NCBI RefSeq assembly: GCF_013911645.1
Contig: NZ_JACESV010000002.1
Span: 1 to 64,000, forward strand
Reading direction: 5' to 3'
Source of the DNA: Allomuricauda sp.
GTDB taxonomy: Bacteria > Bacteroidota > Bacteroidia > Flavobacteriales > Flavobacteriaceae
DNA: 64,000 nt
Position 1 is the first letter of the stretch; each line of letters begins with the position of its first letter. The position numbers were made by a program, and so were the translations under genes. Of this stretch, positions 38,509 through 48,549 are shown one piece after another. A model generated the notes under the pieces. It saw only the letters and a program-made list of their open reading frames with translations, made no database searches and was not told the DNA's origin.

Positions 38509-38910
38509 ATGTTAAAAAAAGGAACCAAAATGTACAGCATTTTAACAGGAAACTGTCCAAGATGCCACCAGGAGAGCATGTACGAGAAATCCAATCCGTA
38601 CACACTTTCCAAAATTTTCAGTATGAACGAAAGGTGTTCGCATTGTGGCTTAAAATACAAGATTGAGCCCTCCTTTTTTTACGGTGCCATGTACGTGAGC
38701 TACGGTGTGGGCATTGCGTTTGCAGTTGCCGCCTTTGTAATCTCCTTTTTATTTATTGGCACTTCTTTATTGACCACCTTTATTGCTATTGTGGGTACTT
38801 TGATTGTTTTTATGCCGGTAATCATCAGGTTATCCAGAAATATTTGGATCAACTTTTTTGTGAAGTATGACCCCACTTCGGTTAAAAAACACGAAGCGGT
38901 AAAGAGTTAA
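38509..38910 (+). CDS. DUF983 zinc-ribbon membrane protein
   Basis: 133 residues from the ATG at 38509. An N-terminal double CxxC pair (Cys16/Cys19 in GNCPRC and Cys43/Cys46 in RCSHCG) forms a zinc ribbon, followed by two membrane helices (about 58-105) and a short basic tail. DUF983 proteins occur in many bacteria, function unknown. The 3' end overlaps by four bases the convergent oxidoreductase gene. Confidence 0.88.
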   Translation: MLKKGTKMYSILTGNCPRCHQESMYEKSNPYTLSKIFSMNERCSHCGLKYKIEPSFFYGAMYVSYGVGIAFAVAAFVISFLFIGTSLLTTFIAIVGTLIVFMPVIIRLSRNIWINFFVKYDPTSVKKHEAVKS

Positions 38911-39962
38911 CTGGAATAATATTTTTTGGTAAACCTTATAACATCCATTTCCGGATCCAAGTCGGTATTGTTTTCAATATAATCGAACAATTGCCTTGAT
39001 GCATACGGCCCTATCAACACACCCCTAGAACCAAATCCGTTCAAAACATACAAATTTTGATACTTCGGGTGCCTGCCCACCAAGGGTCTGCGATCAATAA
39101 CAGTGGGGCGAATGCCCGCTACGTGGTCAACAATCTCAAAATCACATTTTAAAAAGGACTTCAGTTTTTCCAATAGTTCGTTCTTGGACGCTTCGGTAGG
39201 TTCATTGGTCTTATCTTTCCACTTGTACGTGGATCCCACCAAATACGTGTCATCTTCCATTGGAATGGTAAAAACCGAGGATTTGATTACATTGTCTTCT
39301 TTGTAATTGGGCGCATGGATAATCAATAGCTCGCCTTTGGTCCCATTTAAGGGGAGGTAACCGAAATATGGATTTTGTTTGAGGCCGTAACCGCATGCAA
39401 AAACAATGTTCTTGGCGGCAATGGACTTATAAGCGACATGATCCTCTGCTATAGAAAGTGAATCAAAATCCATAGATTCTGATAAGAGTTTGCCTTTTAC
39501 TTCCAGATAACTTTTGTACGAACGCACTAAAGTACCCGTATCTATTCTTCCTGTATATTTTACTTTGCCAAATCCATGTGGTGCATCAATGGCCGGGTTA
39601 TTGTTGTGCAGAATTTTGGTTGAAAGAAAATAGTCCAACTCTGGGCGGTCAGCGGCCTCGAACCATAGATTTTGCTCTTCAATGGATGCAAACTTTCTCA
39701 GAACGGGATGCTCGAAATCCAATTTTACACCCAGTTTTTCCTCCAAATTTTGATAAAATGGCTTGGCCCCTTCCAACTGTTGCTTAGCCTTCCATGCCAT
39801 GGTGAACCGTTTTAAGATTATGGGATTGTATAGGCCACCAGCCACTTGTGAAGCTCTTTGTGATTCGTCCGTGATCACTGTAAAAGCTTTTCCCTCTTTT
39901 TCCAAAACTTCGCAGAACGAAATCCCGGCCAAACCTAAACCTACTACTATATAATCCAACAT
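38907..39962 (-). CDS. FAD-dependent amine/amino-acid oxidoreductase
   Basis: 351 residues of the D-amino-acid oxidase (DAO) fold. The FAD-binding GxGxxG is GLGLAG (8-13), near IVVGLGLAGISFCEVLEK. RPTVIDRRPLVGRHPKYQ and NGFGSRGVLIGPYASRQL form the C-terminal cofactor site. Substrate unknown; related Bacteroidota proteins are annotated as glycine or sarcosine oxidase-like without firm evidence. Stands alone. Confidence 0.82.
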   Translation of the reverse strand: MLDYIVVGLGLAGISFCEVLEKEGKAFTVITDESQRASQVAGGLYNPIILKRFTMAWKAKQQLEGAKPFYQNLEEKLGVKLDFEHPVLRKFASIEEQNLWFEAADRPELDYFLSTKILHNNNPAIDAPHGFGKVKYTGRIDTGTLVRSYKSYLEVKGKLLSESMDFDSLSIAEDHVAYKSIAAKNIVFACGYGLKQNPYFGYLPLNGTKGELLIIHAPNYKEDNVIKSSVFTIPMEDDTYLVGSTYKWKDKTNEPTEASKNELLEKLKSFLKCDFEIVDHVAGIRPTVIDRRPLVGRHPKYQNLYVLNGFGSRGVLIGPYASRQLFDYIENNTDLDPEMDVIRFTKKYYSS

Positions 39963-40082: not shown

Positions 40083-40991
40083 TTAATATGCCCACATATC
40101 CTGCTCTCTGTCGCGTATACCCTCTTTTATTCTTTGGGATTCCAAGAGCTGGAACAATGCATTATCAAAAATGTAATCGTTTATTTCACGATCTTCGTGA
40201 ACGTTTTCCTCCTTGTAGATAACTCCGTTGAATCGACGTGCGTTCAACAACATATCAAAGGAAATGGGTCTTGCCGAGTTCCGCTGGTTGTACACCTTGG
40301 CATCGTGCAAAATTTGCCTAGCCGCAGGGTACCATACCCAAAACAATTCTACTTTGTTCTGTCCTGGATCAATAGACTCATCATCGATAAAGTTAACATC
40401 GGGCGCAACCGGTGCAATTCCCAATAAACGATACTTAAGTTCTCCCTGGCGCTTGTCGAAATACCAGATTCCCTTTATACGAAACTCCTCTATGTCGGCA
40501 GCAGTAATATCCCTTTTGTTAATAAACTCCGGGGAAACCTGCTCACCAGCATTTACCTGCTCGTAACCAAGATCGGTGGTATCTACCTTTCTTAAGGTAG
40601 CCGAAAGGTCTTCCAACTTTCTTTTTTCGGTAAAGTAGGAGTCTGCATAAACCTCGGTAAGGTTTCCATTTTTAATGTTTTTCATCAAAACATGGTACAG
40701 CGACCTTCTATCTGCCCCAATACCTATGGTATCGGTTGGGTAATACAATGGAAAGTTAACTCGTTCGTCAAGATCGATGATTTCCCAAACGGTCTTGGAC
40801 CATAGGATATCCCTATCATCCACATAACCGTACGCTAAAGGCTCATCGGCATCTTGCTCTATTTGAGCTTGGGTTTTTTTACCTATATCCTCTGGCAACT
40901 TGGCATTTAAAATATTTGCCTGCGCCATGATTGATACTGGCAATACGCCCAACAATCCAATTAATAATGCGTTTTTCCAATTCATGATCAC
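40083..40991 (-). CDS. gldN: Gliding motility / type IX secretion protein GldN
   Basis: 302 residues with a signal peptide (ALLIGLLGVLPVSIMAQANI). Conserved GldN features include LWSKTVWEIIDLDERVNFPL, YPTDTIGIGADRRSLYHVLM and the C-terminal ARPISFDMLLNARRF. GldN and GldK form rings in the periplasm/outer membrane of the type IX secretion machine, driven by GldL and GldM. Last gene of gldKLMN; 21 bases after gldM. Confidence 0.95.
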   Translation of the reverse strand: MIMNWKNALLIGLLGVLPVSIMAQANILNAKLPEDIGKKTQAQIEQDADEPLAYGYVDDRDILWSKTVWEIIDLDERVNFPLYYPTDTIGIGADRRSLYHVLMKNIKNGNLTEVYADSYFTEKRKLEDLSATLRKVDTTDLGYEQVNAGEQVSPEFINKRDITAADIEEFRIKGIWYFDKRQGELKYRLLGIAPVAPDVNFIDDESIDPGQNKVELFWVWYPAARQILHDAKVYNQRNSARPISFDMLLNARRFNGVIYKEENVHEDREINDYIFDNALFQLLESQRIKEGIRDREQDMWAY

Positions 40992-41011: not shown

Positions 41012-42580
41012 TTAGTTAGTAAGCTCAACCATAACAGGAGATACTTTCTTTAACTTGTAGCTCTTGTTGTTTGTGATGTAAGCTTGGATATCGAATATCT
41101 GGACAGACTCGCCTCTACCTGCTCTCGCAAGTACAGATTTGGCTCTGCCATCCAATTTGTTTCCATTTACAACTACGGTAGGCTGACCCGGTACTTTAAA
41201 CTTAAACTGATTAACAGCTAGGTTCAAGTCAAAGTCGAAATCTTCCAACATTGCACTAACAGTTGCAATTTCAAGGTTTTTCCTTGGCATTTTAATGCTA
41301 CCTGATTCTCCACGAACGGTACCACTTGGCCTTGGAATATCCTTGATACGGAATTCGGACGAAGTACGGATTCCCTTACCATCGGGCAACGTTCCAGAAG
41401 CTGTAATGGTTACAGATCTACCTGTGCCGGGGTTCATTATGTAATTGCTGCCACTTCTTCTGCTCAAACCAGGAGCTGAAGCTGAAACCTTATTATCTGG
41501 AATACCAGGAATAGAGATGGTCATTGGGTTGGCAACACCACGGTAAACCACGTTCATCTTATCCGCAGAAATTACTGCTGCGTTAGGCATGGAGATGGTT
41601 GCAAAAGTGTTGTTCACTTCCACTGGCACCTCTACACCATCTTGCATGTATGTCATGGTTCCTTTAATGGTATGATCCCCTGGGGTACCGGCACTGATCA
41701 ACATTTTGATACCACCAGCTTCCAATTCATAGTCCTTACCCTCGGTCAATGGTCTTCCGTCCAAAGTCAATTCTGCTTTTACAGGCGTGGAAGTCTTGTC
41801 AGTTTTACTAACAATGATCTTACCATCGTACTTTTCCCCTGCGTAGTAAGCGGTTTTTGGAGCGGACAATGCACTTGCAAAGTTGGTCAAGGACACAGCC
41901 TCGGTCAATTCACCCTCCAAAAGGGTTTTCAACACTTCTTGTTCCGTGGTTTTGATATCTGCCTGCAACTGGGTCATTTTGGTCAAAGAGGCCACCAATG
42001 GGAACCCTTCGTAATGGTAGTTGATCCAATCTTGACGTGTGCCATCTCTCTTCTCAACTTTACCATCTTCATCACCAGTGGCAAAACGGGTTTCAACACC
42101 GGTTTTCAAAGATTTGTATTCATCTGGCAAAGCATTGATAACACCTTCACGGTAGGTATTGATCTGATCCATGAACTTTTTTCCTTCTGGGCCCAAATTG
42201 TCGCCTTGAAAGAATTTTTGGTCCAAATAATCAGACTTGTCCATAACCACATAGTCTTTGGGATCTTCCAAATCTGCGGTCATTTCTTTTTTCAATCCTT
42301 CCAAATAGTTATAGTAATTATCGGAAAGTTGTTTGATCTCTTGAGCATTTTGGTACAATTCTCCGTACTCCTCTTCATTTTCACTAGCCTTTGTTTCTAA
42401 GCTGGCCATAAAACTAGAGTTATTGGAGTCCATATTGGAATTGGAAGTTTCCAGCTTTTCGTTCATAAGTCCGAAAGCTGCAAGTACTTCCTTGCTCATA
42501 TTAAGTGCCAACATCGCGATGAAGATCAAGTACATAAGGTTGATCATCTTCTGACGTGGTGTTTGTTTTCCTCCTGCCAT
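41012..42580 (-). CDS. gldM: Gliding motility / type IX secretion protein GldM
   Basis: 522 residues. A single N-terminal membrane helix follows the conserved MAGGKQTPRQKMINLMYLIF (residues 1-20). Periplasmic helical and beta domains follow (GldM D1-D4), with the motif SGTVRGESGSIKMPRKNLEI near 415-435. GldM and GldL form the proton-driven motor of the type IX secretion system. Adjoins gldL by 68 bases. Confidence 0.96.
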   Translation of the reverse strand: MAGGKQTPRQKMINLMYLIFIAMLALNMSKEVLAAFGLMNEKLETSNSNMDSNNSSFMASLETKASENEEEYGELYQNAQEIKQLSDNYYNYLEGLKKEMTADLEDPKDYVVMDKSDYLDQKFFQGDNLGPEGKKFMDQINTYREGVINALPDEYKSLKTGVETRFATGDEDGKVEKRDGTRQDWINYHYEGFPLVASLTKMTQLQADIKTTEQEVLKTLLEGELTEAVSLTNFASALSAPKTAYYAGEKYDGKIIVSKTDKTSTPVKAELTLDGRPLTEGKDYELEAGGIKMLISAGTPGDHTIKGTMTYMQDGVEVPVEVNNTFATISMPNAAVISADKMNVVYRGVANPMTISIPGIPDNKVSASAPGLSRRSGSNYIMNPGTGRSVTITASGTLPDGKGIRTSSEFRIKDIPRPSGTVRGESGSIKMPRKNLEIATVSAMLEDFDFDLNLAVNQFKFKVPGQPTVVVNGNKLDGRAKSVLARAGRGESVQIFDIQAYITNNKSYKLKKVSPVMVELTN

Positions 42581-42648: not shown

Positions 42649-43305
42649 TTAGACTTTTCCGCCCATGGCTGTAAGCATACCTCCGTACACTCCGTTCAAA
42701 GAAGATAGGTTGGTGGCCAAAGACTCCATTTGGTCTTTCAACGCACCTGCGTTCTGTACAACTTCTTCGTTAATGGAAGCTTGTCTGCTAGCACTTTCCA
42801 ATTGTACTTTGTACAAACTGTTCAAAGATTCCATTTGAGCTGCTGCGTGAGACAATTCCTCTGAGTACTTTTTAGTGTGCTGAATAGCATCTGTAGTTGG
42901 AGTGATGTTCTTGGCAGCACCTTCAAAACTCTTGATACTTTCTCCAAGGTTGGTAAAAAGTTCAGAATCGATTTTTGCTTCTTTAAGAAGGTTATCCAGT
43001 TTTTTGGAAAGCAATCCTTCAGCTTCTTGAGCATCTTTGGCTTGTTGTTTTTTAGAAGCGTCCGCTTGGCCACCGGCCAATTCCGGGTACACCAAAGACC
43101 AATCGAATTCATCGTCAACTGGTTCAAATGCAGAGATAGCAAAGATCAATGCTTCGGTAATAAGTCCAACCGCAAGAAGAAGTCCACCTGTAAGGGGCCC
43201 GAACTCCCAGTGAAGGATCTTGAACAATGCACCAATAATTACTACCGATGCCCCTAGCCCGTAGGCCATGTTAAACAGCTTTTTTGTTGATTTTGACTGC
43301 GCCAT
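42649..43305 (-). CDS. gldL: Gliding motility / type IX secretion motor protein GldL
   Basis: 218 residues with two membrane helices near the N terminus (LFNMAYGLGASVVIIGALFK and GPLTGGLLLAVGLITEALIF, about 10-58), then a cytoplasmic helical tail. The conserved glutamate in the second helix region (ITEALIF) is the one implicated in proton flow in the family. Works with GldM in the inner membrane to power secretion and gliding. Confidence 0.95.
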   Translation of the reverse strand: MAQSKSTKKLFNMAYGLGASVVIIGALFKILHWEFGPLTGGLLLAVGLITEALIFAISAFEPVDDEFDWSLVYPELAGGQADASKKQQAKDAQEAEGLLSKKLDNLLKEAKIDSELFTNLGESIKSFEGAAKNITPTTDAIQHTKKYSEELSHAAAQMESLNSLYKVQLESASRQASINEEVVQNAGALKDQMESLATNLSSLNGVYGGMLTAMGGKV

Positions 43306-43395: not shown

Positions 43396-44775
43396 TTATA
43401 GTCCGCTTCGGCTACCGTTGGTAGAGTCTTCCTCTCCCATATAATCCTGGACCGTTCTAAATCCTATGTAACTTCTCGCAGAATCTTGATATTCATAATC
43501 TCTGGTACTTACTTGAAGGAAGTAAGCTACATCTTTCCAAGAACCTCCACGAATCACTTTACGTTTGTTGTCCTGTGAACCAATATTCGGGTTCATCGTG
43601 GATAAATATTGGTAAGCACCTGGATCAAAACTGGAGTTTGTCCATTCCGATACATTGCCTGCCATATTGTACAAATTGTATTCGTTAGGCTCAAAGGATT
43701 TTGCTTCTACCGTATATAAAGCGGCATCTGCTGCGTAATCGCCACGTTGTGGTTTAAAGTTGGCCATAAAACATCCTGTATCGCTGATCACATACGGACC
43801 TCCCCAAGGATATGTCCCGCCTTCGATTCCTCCCCTGGCAGCATATTCCCACTCTGCCTCGGTGGGCAACCTAAATTGGTTCACAAACTGTTTTCCACGA
43901 CTTTTTTGATCATCGTTCTTAAATTTTGTTCTCCAATTACAGAAGGCTTTGGCTTGCATCCAGTTTACCCCGACAACAGGGTAGTCGCTATAGGCATCGT
44001 GCCAAAAATAATCGTTGTGCATTGGCTCATTGTAGCTGTATTCAAAATCTCGAATCCACACAGTGGTATCTGGGTAAATTTCCAGTTCTTCTTGTTTAAT
44101 GAAGTCCTTTCTATTACCCGATCGTGCCCTGGCCGCAGCTTCGATGTCCATCCAGTTGTACTTGTACTTGATTTTGGTAACATCTATGCTTCTAAGGCCA
44201 TTATAGCTTTCTTCTTCTGGAAGATACATGGAATCCATAACCTCTGCATAGTACTCATCCGGGTATTCCGATGTATCCCATATCAAATCCACATCTTTGT
44301 TCAATGCCCTGCCTTCATAATAGTTATCTCCCATACCCGCATAATTATCGAGCATGTATTTGTCGTAAACGGAAAGTTCAGTCGTATCGGTATCCTTAAA
44401 TCCGTACTCACCGATACCTTCATCTTCGGGCCCAATACCCAACTCGTCGGCCAAAATGGCCAATCTGGTTCTTACTATGGAATCCTTGACCCACTCCACA
44501 AACTGTCGGTACTCACTATTGGTGATTTCCGTATCGTCCATATAAAAGGAACGTACGGTAACCGTTCTTGTGGGAGCATTCAATGTTTTTGCTTGATCCT
44601 CATGGGCTTTCCCCATTACAAAGGCGCCTCTGGGAATCAATTCCATTCCATAGGGTTTTTCTGGATGCCATTTTTTTCCCTTTACCCCAACTAGTTCACC
44701 TTTTGACCTTGATTTAGAGCCACAACTGGCAAGCAAAAAAACAAGTGCTAGAGATGAAAAGAATAGCTTTCTCAT
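43396..44775 (-). CDS. gldK: Gliding motility lipoprotein GldK
   Basis: 459 residues with a lipoprotein signal (VFLLASCGSKS, Cys18). Formylglycine-generating-enzyme-like fold, recognisable by EAEWEYAARGGIEGGTYPWG, YNMAGNVSEWTNSSFDPGAY and RGGSWKDVAYFLQVSTRDYE near the end. GldK has the fold but not the enzyme role; it builds an outer membrane ring with GldN. First of gldKLMN. A 120-base leader precedes it. Confidence 0.95.
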   Translation of the reverse strand: MRKLFFSSLALVFLLASCGSKSRSKGELVGVKGKKWHPEKPYGMELIPRGAFVMGKAHEDQAKTLNAPTRTVTVRSFYMDDTEITNSEYRQFVEWVKDSIVRTRLAILADELGIGPEDEGIGEYGFKDTDTTELSVYDKYMLDNYAGMGDNYYEGRALNKDVDLIWDTSEYPDEYYAEVMDSMYLPEEESYNGLRSIDVTKIKYKYNWMDIEAAARARSGNRKDFIKQEELEIYPDTTVWIRDFEYSYNEPMHNDYFWHDAYSDYPVVGVNWMQAKAFCNWRTKFKNDDQKSRGKQFVNQFRLPTEAEWEYAARGGIEGGTYPWGGPYVISDTGCFMANFKPQRGDYAADAALYTVEAKSFEPNEYNLYNMAGNVSEWTNSSFDPGAYQYLSTMNPNIGSQDNKRKVIRGGSWKDVAYFLQVSTRDYEYQDSARSYIGFRTVQDYMGEEDSTNGSRSGL

Positions 44776-44897
44776 ACTTTAGGTTAAATTGTTCGATTCA
44801 AGATTTTATAACTGTACTACACAGATTCATTACTCTCAAAACTGATTTTTGAATGAATTATTGTGCAAAAACAATTAATGATCAAAATTTAATTTAT

Positions 44898-46055
44898 TTA
44901 GTTCAAGCCTTTTCTGTAGGCTTTGAACCACCTTTCAGGAATGTTCTGGTTGCAAGCATCCAAATAGTCCTCTTCGGTGCAAGGTAATAACGCCACCGAA
45001 TTTGTTTTAGTATGCTCTGCCAAAATTGTTGGTACTTCTACCCACCACCGTTCTGTGACATGGCTTTTGAAAAAAATCAACTCTTCCGTGTCCGTGGGTA
45101 CAGTAAACTTTGTGAAGTCTTCGTTCTTTGAACTTGGGTACTCTTTGATCCTGAAGCTTAGGCCCTCAATAAAATACCATATAATCTGGGCAATCATCTG
45201 AAATGCCTGGTGCGAGTTCTCCCCTTCGTAAATTCCAAACAGGGAAACTTTGTCGCTAATACCGGCGTAACGGGCAATGGTACATATCTCTCGACCTGTA
45301 AAACCATTTGGGGAAAAGTTACTTGTCATACCCATTTCGCTGGCCCGGATAGCCCGCAGGTCCAAGCTTACAATATCACTGCTTCGCAAAACAGGTTCCG
45401 CCAGTTCTATATTGGCGGCAATCTCACCTAAGCGATAGGCATCAAAAAAAAGGCGCTCCATTAAATCCTTCTCTTCCTGGGCATTGAAATAACTCTGGTA
45501 TCCAATGTTTGAAAAATTAAAAAGATTATTGGGCTTATCCGTAATAATTTTGCTCATATAAGAATGTGATGAAATCAATTCATCGTCCTCACCAAAGTCG
45601 AACCGACTATCAATGGAGACCAGATTCACCATATTCTTTATTTTATCAAAAGCGCGGTAAGTAGGGAAAGTAATATCCTGGGTAAGACCCAATACTATGG
45701 GTATTATGTTTTCCTCAAGTAATCCAGCTACAATTTCCTTTACAACAAAGTAGGTATCCTCCACAGTGTCGCCTTCCTCCACATCCCCTATATCAATAAT
45801 GGTGGAGTTCCAATTGCCCATCATTAAACGGTAGAGCTGAATACGGACTTCGTCCAAATCCAGTTTTTCTGGTTTTTTCTCAAAGGCATTTCTGGATTCC
45901 AATACGCCAAAAATGGCCACATCGGCATGGGCGAATACGGGAAGCCCATCCTTTTCGGTATGCATGTGGATGTTTTTTCCCAATGCTTGTTCTGGCAACA
46001 ATTCGGAATGTGCCAATACCTTGTCCTTTACCGGAACCAGAAAATCGAAGGCCAT
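44898..46055 (-). CDS. Arginase/formimidoylglutamase-fold protein with degenerate metal site
   Basis: 385 residues matching the arginase superfamily by order and spacing of its segments, and next to gldK and topA. The manganese ligands of active members (GGGHE/D, DAHxD, DxDxxD) are mostly lost: GLTQDIT at 123-129 replaces the His; IDSRFDF (148-154) keeps Asp149 and Asp153 but has Arg151 for His; DLRAIRAS (232-239) keeps Asp232 but has Arg234 and Arg237 in place of the later Asp residues. So it is probably not a metal-dependent ureohydrolase. Being retained between topA and gldK suggests a structural or regulatory role, perhaps linked to secretion; this is inference. Confidence 0.78.
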   Translation of the reverse strand: MAFDFLVPVKDKVLAHSELLPEQALGKNIHMHTEKDGLPVFAHADVAIFGVLESRNAFEKKPEKLDLDEVRIQLYRLMMGNWNSTIIDIGDVEEGDTVEDTYFVVKEIVAGLLEENIIPIVLGLTQDITFPTYRAFDKIKNMVNLVSIDSRFDFGEDDELISSHSYMSKIITDKPNNLFNFSNIGYQSYFNAQEEKDLMERLFFDAYRLGEIAANIELAEPVLRSSDIVSLDLRAIRASEMGMTSNFSPNGFTGREICTIARYAGISDKVSLFGIYEGENSHQAFQMIAQIIWYFIEGLSFRIKEYPSSKNEDFTKFTVPTDTEELIFFKSHVTERWWVEVPTILAEHTKTNSVALLPCTEEDYLDACNQNIPERWFKAYRKGLN

Positions 46056-46056
46056 A

Positions 46057-48549
46057 CTATTTTTTATTCTTAGCTTTTGCTTTTGACTTGGCTTTTTTCT
46101 TTGGTGATTTTTTTTCCAATAGGGCTTGTGCTTCTTCCAAAGTTACTTTTGTGGCGTCCACATCTTTGGAAATTTCAACTTTTACCTTACCTTTTATAAT
46201 ATTGTGTCTTCCCCAACGGGCTTTTTCTATCCTGATTTTTTCTTCGGGCCATTCTTGAACCAGTTTTTCGGCTTCCTTTTTCTTTTTGGCCTCGATCAAT
46301 TCAGCAATATCGCTTTCGGAAAGATTATCAAAGTCATATTTTTTGTTCACATTGATGAACATACCGTCCCATTTGATAAAAGGACCAAACCTACCTTTAC
46401 CTTTGGTAACTTCCTTTCCTTCATACGTGGCAATCGGTGCATCGGCCTTTTGTTTTTCCTTGATCAGTTCTATGGCACGGTCCATATCCACATCAAAAGC
46501 ACTTTCGCCTTTGGCGAGTGAAATGAATTTTTTCCCAAACCGTACATAAGGGCCATAGCGGCCTACATTCGCCTCTACTTCCTCACCTTCGTACACGCCC
46601 AATTTTCTTGGAAGCTCAAAAAGCGTCATGGCTTCTTCAAAAGTGATGGTGCCGATAGACTGGTCTGGCAACAAACTTGCAAATTGTGGTTTTTCCTCAT
46701 CGTCGACCGTTCCAATTTGTACCATGGGGCCAAAACGGCCCAATCTTACGGATACCTGTCTGCCCGTTTTGGGGTCCGTTCCCAACACACGCTCACCACT
46801 GGCACGTTCGGCATTTTCCTCGACCTCCAACACATTGGGGTGGAAATCCTTGTAGAAATTTTTCATCATTTCCTGCCAATCTTCATCACCAGATGCTATT
46901 TCATCAAAATCCTCTTCTACCTGAGCTGTAAAATTGTAATCTAGAATTTGGGTAAAGTGGGTCACCAAAAAATCATTTACTATCATCCCGATATCGGTCG
47001 GAACAATCTTCCCTTTCTCAGACCCCACCATTTCGCTTAGCTGGCTATCGGACACTTTTCCACCCTCCAATACCAACTGTGTATACTTGCGCTCGGAACC
47101 TTCAACGGTACCTTTTTCCACATATCCCCTATTTTGAATGGTGGATATGGTAGGGGCGTAGGTAGATGGTCGGCCAATGCCCAATTCTTCCAACTTCTTC
47201 ACCAAAGAAGCTTCTGAATAACGGTAAGGCGGTCTTGAGAATCTTTCTGTGGCCGAAATAAATACATTTTGAAGCGGCTCCCCCACAGCCATGGCCGGTA
47301 ACATACCTTCTTGTTCCTCCCCATCCTCATCATCAGTTCCTTCCAAGTATACTTTAAGGAATCCATCAAACTTCACCACTTCTCCGTTTGCTGAGAATTC
47401 CTCGTTGTGGGTACTTGCCTTTATTTTTACATTGGTGCGCTCCAACTGGGCATCGCTCATCTGCGAGGCAAGGGTACGTTTCCAAATCAGCTCATATAAT
47501 TTTGCTTGGTCGCGCTCCAATTGGGGCGATTGCAATTTCATATCGGTTGGGCGAATGGCCTCGTGAGCCTCTTGTGCCCCTTTGGATTTCCCTGTAAAAT
47601 TTCTGGTTTGACTATACTTTTCGCCATAGTTGTCCAGTATGGCACTTTTGGCGGCGGACAATGCTTCGTTCGAAAGATTAACACTATCTGTTCTCATATA
47701 GGTAATGAGACCTGCCTCGTATAGGCGCTGGGCTACCTGCATGGTGCGGCTCACCGAAAAATAGAGTTTTCGCGATGCTTCCTGCTGTAAGGTAGATGTG
47801 GTAAATGGCGCCGCTGGTGATTTTTTGGCCGGTTTTTGGGCCAAATCGGAAACCGAAAAATCCGCACCAATATTCTCTTTTAAAAATGATTCGGCCGCCT
47901 CTTTGGTCGGGAATGTTTTGTTCAGCTTGGCTGCAAATGTATTCCCCTCATTGGTTTTGAATTCCGCCTTTATCCTAAAAGATGCTTCGGGCGTAAACCC
48001 TTCGATCTCACGTTCACGCTCCACGATCAAGCGTACCGCAACGGATTGAACCCTACCTGCGGAAAGTCCCGGTTTTATTTTTTTCCAAAGTACCGGCGAT
48101 AGTTCGTAACCCACCAATCGGTCCAGCACCCTACGTGCCTGCTGTGCATTTACCAAGTTATAATTAATGTCCCTTGGATTTTCAATCGCCTTTTGGATGG
48201 CCGATTTTGTGATGGAGTTAAATACGATCCGCTTGGTCTTGTTCTTGTCCAAACCCAACTCTTCTGCCAAGTGCCAAGATATGGCCTCCCCTTCGCGGTC
48301 CTCATCACTTGCCAGCCAAATAGTTTCTGCTTTTTTAGCCAAATCCTTAAGCTTTTTTACCAAAGCTTTTTTCTCCTTGTCTACAGTGTATTTTGGCTTA
48401 AAATCGTTCTCCACATCTACACCGAGCTCTTTTGAGGGAAGGTCGGCAATGTGCCCAAAACTAGACTCTACTTGAAATTCTTTTCCTAGGAACCGTTCAA
48501 TGGTCTTAGCTTTAGCGGGGGACTCTACAATAACTAAATTTTTTGGCAT
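46057..48549 (-). CDS. topA: DNA topoisomerase I
   Basis: 830 residues with Toprim domain (EDREGEAIS around 83-91), catalytic tyrosine Tyr284 in GLITYMRTDS, zinc-less C-terminal repeats of the Bacteroidota type (GRFGPMVQIG, GRYGPYVRFG, GRFGPFIKW, RWGRHNIIKG) and a strongly basic tail (KKSPKKKAKSKAKAKNKK). Relaxes negative supercoils. Stop and the next gene are separated by one base, so the two form one transcription unit. A TACTTTTG promoter element lies at 48576-48569. Confidence 0.96.
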   Translation of the reverse strand: MPKNLVIVESPAKAKTIERFLGKEFQVESSFGHIADLPSKELGVDVENDFKPKYTVDKEKKALVKKLKDLAKKAETIWLASDEDREGEAISWHLAEELGLDKNKTKRIVFNSITKSAIQKAIENPRDINYNLVNAQQARRVLDRLVGYELSPVLWKKIKPGLSAGRVQSVAVRLIVEREREIEGFTPEASFRIKAEFKTNEGNTFAAKLNKTFPTKEAAESFLKENIGADFSVSDLAQKPAKKSPAAPFTTSTLQQEASRKLYFSVSRTMQVAQRLYEAGLITYMRTDSVNLSNEALSAAKSAILDNYGEKYSQTRNFTGKSKGAQEAHEAIRPTDMKLQSPQLERDQAKLYELIWKRTLASQMSDAQLERTNVKIKASTHNEEFSANGEVVKFDGFLKVYLEGTDDEDGEEQEGMLPAMAVGEPLQNVFISATERFSRPPYRYSEASLVKKLEELGIGRPSTYAPTISTIQNRGYVEKGTVEGSERKYTQLVLEGGKVSDSQLSEMVGSEKGKIVPTDIGMIVNDFLVTHFTQILDYNFTAQVEEDFDEIASGDEDWQEMMKNFYKDFHPNVLEVEENAERASGERVLGTDPKTGRQVSVRLGRFGPMVQIGTVDDEEKPQFASLLPDQSIGTITFEEAMTLFELPRKLGVYEGEEVEANVGRYGPYVRFGKKFISLAKGESAFDVDMDRAIELIKEKQKADAPIATYEGKEVTKGKGRFGPFIKWDGMFINVNKKYDFDNLSESDIAELIEAKKKKEAEKLVQEWPEEKIRIEKARWGRHNIIKGKVKVEISKDVDATKVTLEEAQALLEKKSPKKKAKSKAKAKNKK

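Follow-up and report, generated by a model that had tools for sequence, protein, structure and literature searches.

A ureohydrolase-fold protein with incomplete metal sites, conserved beside topA and gldK in many families, is a candidate cytoplasmic part of type IX secretion or gliding

Pseudoenzymes are already known in the arginase superfamily. The available text of PMC11271267 describes MetCb, the inactive subunit that pairs with catalytic MetCa in metformin hydrolase, and cites further superfamily proteins of unknown role. MetCb has lost metal ligands, acts as a protein binder, and is encoded next to its catalytic paralogue. The same text cites an arginase-like protein of the eukaryote T. 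brucei (Hai 2015), described as having evolved without a binuclear Mn cluster. The type IX secretion system (T9SS) has a core operon of porP/porK-N or gldK-N genes, and its core protein GldL has a cytoplasmic domain (residues 59 to 189 in F. johnsoniae, according to the available text of PMC8986121). An arginase-fold T9SS component, or any account of the protein family described here, was not found in searches of the open-licence literature of PubMed Central. The accessible portions of PMC12635249, PMC10936215, PMC10994853, PMC12147357, PMC9169529, PMC8986121, and PMC11271267 contain no link between the arginase fold and T9SS, and the "arginase" of PMC9169529 is a biochemical test.

We analyzed a stretch of 64,000 nucleotides (the window) with near-identical loci in named Muricauda, Flagellimonas, and Allomuricauda records. 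On the minus strand, an open reading frame starting with ATG (44898..46055) encodes a protein of 385 amino acids that we call the pseudo-ureohydrolase, identified by its match to Pfam family PF00491 and its fold match to structure 2a0m. The genes around it are all on the same strand. Upstream is topA, encoding DNA topoisomerase I (46057..48549), with a single nucleotide between its stop and the ATG. Downstream, across a gap of 122 nt, follow gldK (43396..44775; FGE-sulfatase domain and place before gldLMN), gldL (42649..43305; GldL_N, E value of 1.8e-28), gldM (41012..42580; four GldM domains), and gldN (40083..40991; GldN, E value of 2.3e-66). Directly after gldN lies a FAD-dependent oxidoreductase-like gene (38907-39962), named after the family of a relative (L144:2244-3326), which is a recurring neighbor in 9 of 45 clustered loci. 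The window's family (L197-L201; window 44776-44897) has no porP between the pseudo-ureohydrolase gene and gldK, unlike most other linked families. Promoter and terminator scans of the cluster returned no more matches than were found in shuffled sequence.

The pseudo-ureohydrolase has the alpha/beta arginase fold. It matches PF00491 with 41.2 bits (E value of 1.8e-10; gathering cutoff, 22), and residues 38 to 303 of the predicted model align with Trypanosoma cruzi formiminoglutamase 2a0m over 220 residues (Z score of 21.4, 2.7 Å). The full-length model is of moderate confidence (mean pLDDT of 62.4), with residues 125 to 142 and 152 to 206 below 50. The best PDB profile match of the family is Bacillus subtilis HutG (3m1r; E value of 6.5e-17). 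The best NCBIfam model for the protein is likewise hutG (TIGR01227), but its score of 41.9 bits is far under the cutoff of 229.15, and four orthologues score 50.7, 75.1, 95.8, and 98.4. The original prediction had expected a mis-annotation as formimidoylglutamase; hutG is indeed the nearest model, but with such a score that model alone would not give the gene this name. A true HutG is encoded elsewhere in the host genome (295.4 bits, over the cutoff), as is an agmatinase (229 bits, over its own cutoff). Compared with HutG (TIGR01227; 3m1r, 2a0m/4mxr), the pseudo-ureohydrolase is alike in fold and in R71, D88, Q187, and G251, whereas it has H126, H151, and D234 replaced, carries an extra C-terminal extension, and belongs to a separate clade. 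No signal peptide-like N terminus was seen among 110 orthologue rows checked for N-terminal hydrophobicity; the first 45 amino acids are hydrophobic enough for a membrane segment in only one of them. Lacking a signal peptide-like start, the protein is expected to work in the cytoplasm.

Three of the six classical arginase ligands are present in the protein, as the original prediction had read from the sequence. In motif 1 (LGLTQDITF, residues 122 to 130; 45666..45692, minus strand), Q126 replaces the site-A His of GGGHE/D. Motif 2 (SIDSRFDF, residues 147 to 154; 45594..45617, minus strand) keeps D149 and D153 with R151 in place of the site-B His, and motif 3 (SLDLRAIRAS, residues 230 to 239; 45339..45368, minus strand) keeps D232 with R234 in place of the site-B Asp. 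Following the arginase literature, we take site A to be positions 126, 149, 153, and 232 and site B to be positions 149, 151, 232, and 234. We placed these motifs in a census of 110 orthologues from 69 family codes, an uneven sample with several rows from the same family, in which position 126 is Q in 69, H in 15, and N in 11; position 151 is R in 36, K in 22, and H in 3; and position 234 is S in 53, N in 15, G in 13, and D in 7. The census left out second or partial copies and weak hits (L195, L196, L202, L203-L232, L159/L229, and L230/L287), of which L203-L232 mostly repeat genomes already counted. The aspartates are mostly kept (D149 in 92, D153 in 87, and D232 in 96 of 110), and E277 is present in 68 rows. 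Rows with zero, one, two, three, and four of the six ligands number 3, 12, 11, 70, and 14, respectively. None has five or six, and the ligand losses extend far beyond Flavobacteriaceae. H151 and D234 occur together in no row, and 100 rows have neither. Twelve HutG-like comparison proteins, all fetched as weaker matches from outside the class, each have D149, H151, D232, and D234; seven have all six ligands, and in the others N stands at 126 (four proteins) or at 153 (one protein).

This distribution indicates that the site-B-only ligands, H151 and D234, were lost in the common ancestry of the pseudo-ureohydrolases, with the rest of the pocket apparently mostly retained and then decayed in some lineages. 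With these ligands lost in the ancestry, the two-metal hydrolase reaction, and with it catalytic activity, should be gone. The protein therefore stands as a candidate pseudoenzyme, as had been proposed, with the refinement that the loss is patterned rather than general. We considered whether it might instead be an active enzyme that works with only one metal, bound in site A (Q/H126, D149, D153, and D232), on a guanidino or formimino substrate. The three aspartates found together in 82 of 110 orthologues and the frequent E277 speak for such an enzyme, as does the H-to-N change at 126 in the four HutG-like proteins, which keep their other motifs. The consistent absence of the site-B pair speaks against it, as do the 21 rows that lack D149 or D232 and still carry the clade-specific residues described below. 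A further point against it is R or K at 151 (58 of 110 rows), which is commoner in rows with both D149 and D232 (52 of 89 rows versus 6 of 21; P = 0.016, uncorrected). Such a pattern would suit a side chain that takes the place of metal B or, alternatively, a retained site for a cation or guanidinium group. Overall, we consider a single-metal enzyme improbable.

The pocket is also better preserved where the gene is linked, which we count in favor of a T9SS or gliding role. D149 and D232 are kept in 39 of 41 families with the gene linked to gldK versus 19 of 28 unlinked families (P = 0.005), E277 is kept in 35 of 41 versus 13 of 28 (P = 0.001), and all three aspartates are kept in 36 of 41 versus 19 of 28 (P = 0.066), where no P value is corrected for kinship, family f13 counts as linked through its porP, and a family scores if any of its rows has the trait.

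The strongest constraint falls on residues outside the pocket and on a C-terminal extension that the original prediction had not mentioned. R208, E220, P221, R224, W293, F328, W337, C359, D363, and Y364 are each conserved in at least 105 of 110 orthologues and are found in none or one of the 12 HutG-like proteins. These include three residues of EPVLR (residues 220 to 224; 45384..45398, minus strand), namely E220, P221, and R224, present in 109, 105, and 109 orthologues versus 1, 0, and 0 HutG-like proteins, and W293 (45177..45179, minus strand), which is invariant in the 110 rows and found in 1 of 12. Columns conserved in at least 95% of the 110 rows and common to the HutG-like proteins (10 to 12 of 12) are R71, D88, G90, Q187, G251, G265, and G298. 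The C-terminal extension (residues 304 to 385; 44901..45146, minus strand; F328, W337, W338, C359, D363, Y364, P373, and W376) corresponds to gaps in all 12 HutG-like proteins. PDB profile matches stop near model position 308, and the extension has no counterpart in the matched PDB sequences. It is predicted to form four strands and two helices, and a PDB fold search with this part alone (model pLDDT of 65.6) gave no match at an E value of ≤0.001, a result that does not by itself make it a new fold. Among the 21 rows in which D149 or D232 is gone, 17 to 21 still carry each of the 10 clade-specific residues, so function seems to rest on these residues and not on the pocket. In family f19, the N-terminal half is badly degraded and the C-terminal part is kept (L171, L176, and L177). 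The weakest f19 rows (L167, L171, L176, and L177) score 104 to 147 bits, no better than HutG-like proteins (101 to 162), and were counted as orthologues because the clade-specific residues are present.

Purifying selection acts on the gene. Against 17 related loci, dN is 0.043 to 0.157 for the pseudo-ureohydrolase gene, 0.064 to 0.125 for topA, and 0.033 to 0.119 for gldK, with synonymous sites near or past saturation in the same comparison. A chance open reading frame, a pseudogene, or recent decay is rejected by these dN values, the conservation, and the wide range of the gene. In a tree of 84 rows, 70 pseudo-ureohydrolases lie on one side of a branch with support of 100 and 14 HutG- or agmatinase-type proteins lie on the other. 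The tree was built by a quick method with one or a few rows per family and without the f19 rows L167, L171, L176, and L177, and 42 of its 81 inner branches are open. The family most likely derives from a HutG-like ancestor and had separated from it by the time the sampled class radiated, if not before. A mirror-tree search for a partner among topA, porP, gldK, gldL, gldM, and gldN (41 loci) gave no robust candidate: porP first stood out (partial r of 0.38; permutation P = 0.0035), but the value fell to −0.09 without the fast or odd families f90, f120, f15, and f20, and with uncorrected distances topA was highest.

MetCb raises the alternative that the pseudo-ureohydrolase is the inactive subunit of a ureohydrolase. 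There is this precedent in the superfamily (PMC11271267, in its available text), and the host genome does hold the two catalytic family members noted above. However, the pseudo-ureohydrolase is the only PF00491 match in 8 of 21 genomes. These 21 were hand-picked, partly for small size, and two of them, G040 and G053, have a completeness of 88% and 86%. In general, pairing with a catalytic arginase is therefore unlikely. Unlike with MetCb, no catalytic arginase-family gene adjoins in the neighborhoods examined. We regard a two-subunit ureohydrolase as very improbable.

We surveyed the gene neighborhood at 103 loci grouped into the 69 family codes. The place next to gldK, on which the original prediction drew, proved old and widespread: in 40 of 69 families the next gene downstream on that strand is gldK, or porP/SprF followed by gldK, and this links the gene genetically to T9SS. 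In 26 families there is no gldK linkage within the retrieved sequence, and 3 could not be classified. The intervening porP was recognized by a Pfam match at L143 and by HMM matches elsewhere. topA lies upstream in 41 of 69 families, and its spacing to the gene is 55 nt or less in 44 of the 55 loci with topA, sometimes with a 3-nt overlap, as judged from mechanical start calls. The linked or unlinked label changes at least eight times on the tree, and the linked rows are spread over several deep branches, whose order in the tree is open; this would be expected if an ancestral cluster had been disrupted repeatedly. Flavobacteriales loci that have closed up without the gene show that it can drop out of the cluster: topA abuts porP in f12 (L295), and in f10 (L294) topA is followed by gldK, with the pseudo-ureohydrolase gene and porP both gone.

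The unlinked copies bear on the main rival to a T9SS or gliding role, that of a noncatalytic binder with a general cytoplasmic or envelope task, for example in wall metabolism, whose adjacency to gldK would reflect inherited order and cotranscription with topA. These copies sit beside assorted wall and envelope genes. In 11 of the 26 to 28 unlinked families, the gene has a head-to-head neighbor, an HpnA-like SDR (sugar epimerase-type) gene (L163, L174, L175, L312, L245, L266, L270, L271, L272, L280, L273, L275, L279, L284, and L286). An MurQ-type etherase gene is found in f22 and f23, and a D-Ala-D-Ala carboxypeptidase gene is found in f18 (L164). In f19 (L171, L176, and L177) and f107 (L258), the gene is convergent on murF. 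The constancy of topA, a neighbor in 41 families versus 40 for gldK, also suits a general role. On the other hand, the f19 and f107 loci again include T9SS-type genes: FGE-domain genes that we call GldJ-like from that domain, a PorP/SprF gene nearby in L171, L176, and L258, and a C25 protease (PorU-like) gene at L171. In the clusters, moreover, porP and gldKLMN are all T9SS genes, and retention of the gene order across 40 family codes, with at least eight changes of linkage, suggests selection. The host genome also has an HpnA-like SDR relative, away from the window.

We determined how the gene is distributed relative to T9SS. Profile A1 (29 orthologues) matches 281 of 296 class genomes at an E value of ≤0.001. 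Of these matches, G658 (E value of 4.4e-4, with stops) and G666 (4.1e-10) are unlikely to be orthologues, and the one in G521 is cut short by a contig end. Such near-universal presence, whether or not the gene is linked to gldK, is also what a general role would predict. A profile search of an order draw found a match in 149 of 196 genomes; the genomes shown without one are mostly reduced f16 genomes, and those listed are 0.3 to 0.6 Mb and also without GldM. A single-sequence search found a match in 153 of 395 phylum genomes. Among the class genomes, 280 have the gene and GldM, 10 have GldM only, 1 (G415) has the gene only, and 5 have neither. Of these five, G497 has SprA_N, and an assembly gap is probable there; G633 has a genome of only 1.2 Mb; and the remaining three are all from f25, a family that also holds two GldM-positive genomes without the gene (G450 and G587). 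Among the 154 GldM-positive genomes of the order draw, the gene is absent from 6 (G043, G044, G046, G056, G697, and G704). A seventh order genome, G047, has only an HutG-like hit, and its locus L297 is porP-gldKLMN without the pseudo-ureohydrolase gene.

The converse case, G415, has an intact gene copy with four ligands and lacks GldM, GldL_N, and SprA_N, again in favor of a general role. Its relative G060, in which GldL and GldM are present, likewise gives no SprA_N match, and the absence of SprA_N alone is therefore weak evidence in G415. Genus code g37 of f17 (L307 = G060, and G415) thus combines a genome with both GldL and GldM and a genome with neither of them, both being without an SprA_N match; T9SS may have been lost recently in this group. 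The phyletic profile rules out an obligatory T9SS role and leaves a T9SS role as such neither proved nor excluded: the gene is joined to the T9SS core operon in many families, yet its presence is not obligate. We rejected co-occurrence with T9SS as proof of function because there are too few informative losses. The job in secretion or gliding that had been proposed for the protein accordingly draws its support from the widespread gldK linkage and is weakened by the GldM-positive genomes without the gene and by G415. Taken with the unlinked copies, these results leave a general cytoplasmic or envelope role as a serious possibility that we nevertheless rate as somewhat doubtful.

We give an even chance to the reading that the pseudo-ureohydrolase is a noncatalytic, cytoplasmic ureohydrolase-fold binding protein that serves the T9SS or gliding machinery. 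Being encoded by the second gene of a topA-pseudoarginase-(porP)-gldKLMN cluster in most families, the protein has as its most likely job that of an adaptor or regulator of this machinery. By this account, an HutG-like enzyme ancestor would have lost the site-B-only ligands and, with them, two-metal hydrolysis. The residues around E220-P221-x-x-R224 and W293, together with the C-terminal extension, would most likely form a protein-binding surface, through which the protein could act as a cytoplasmic adaptor or regulator of type IX secretion or gliding, for instance by binding to GldL at its cytoplasmic domain. That domain makes GldL the first candidate partner. A single cation or a guanidinium-like ligand might sit among the retained pocket aspartates, basic residue 151, and E277 and tune the adaptor. 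A fuller version, which we regard as rather unlikely in all its parts, is that the protein is an unrecognized cytoplasmic part of T9SS or gliding: an inactive HutG-like enzyme bearing a C-terminal extension of its own, from an ancestral topA-pseudoarginase-porP-gldKLMN operon of the class, that docks on the cytoplasmic domain of GldL in the inner-membrane motor and relays to secretion or gliding a cytoplasmic cue read by the remodeled Asp/Arg pocket.

To our knowledge, few cytoplasmic parts of the type IX secretion and gliding machine are known, and how the proton-driven GldLM motor is controlled from the inside is open. A candidate for such a part is this near-universal protein, which is conserved on noncatalytic residues and in many families is encoded within the core cluster. 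The arginase-family label does not, in this case, mean urea or histidine metabolism. The pseudo-ureohydrolase would add an ancient, class-wide case of an enzyme turned binder to a superfamily in which most of the other pseudoenzymes still await an explanation.
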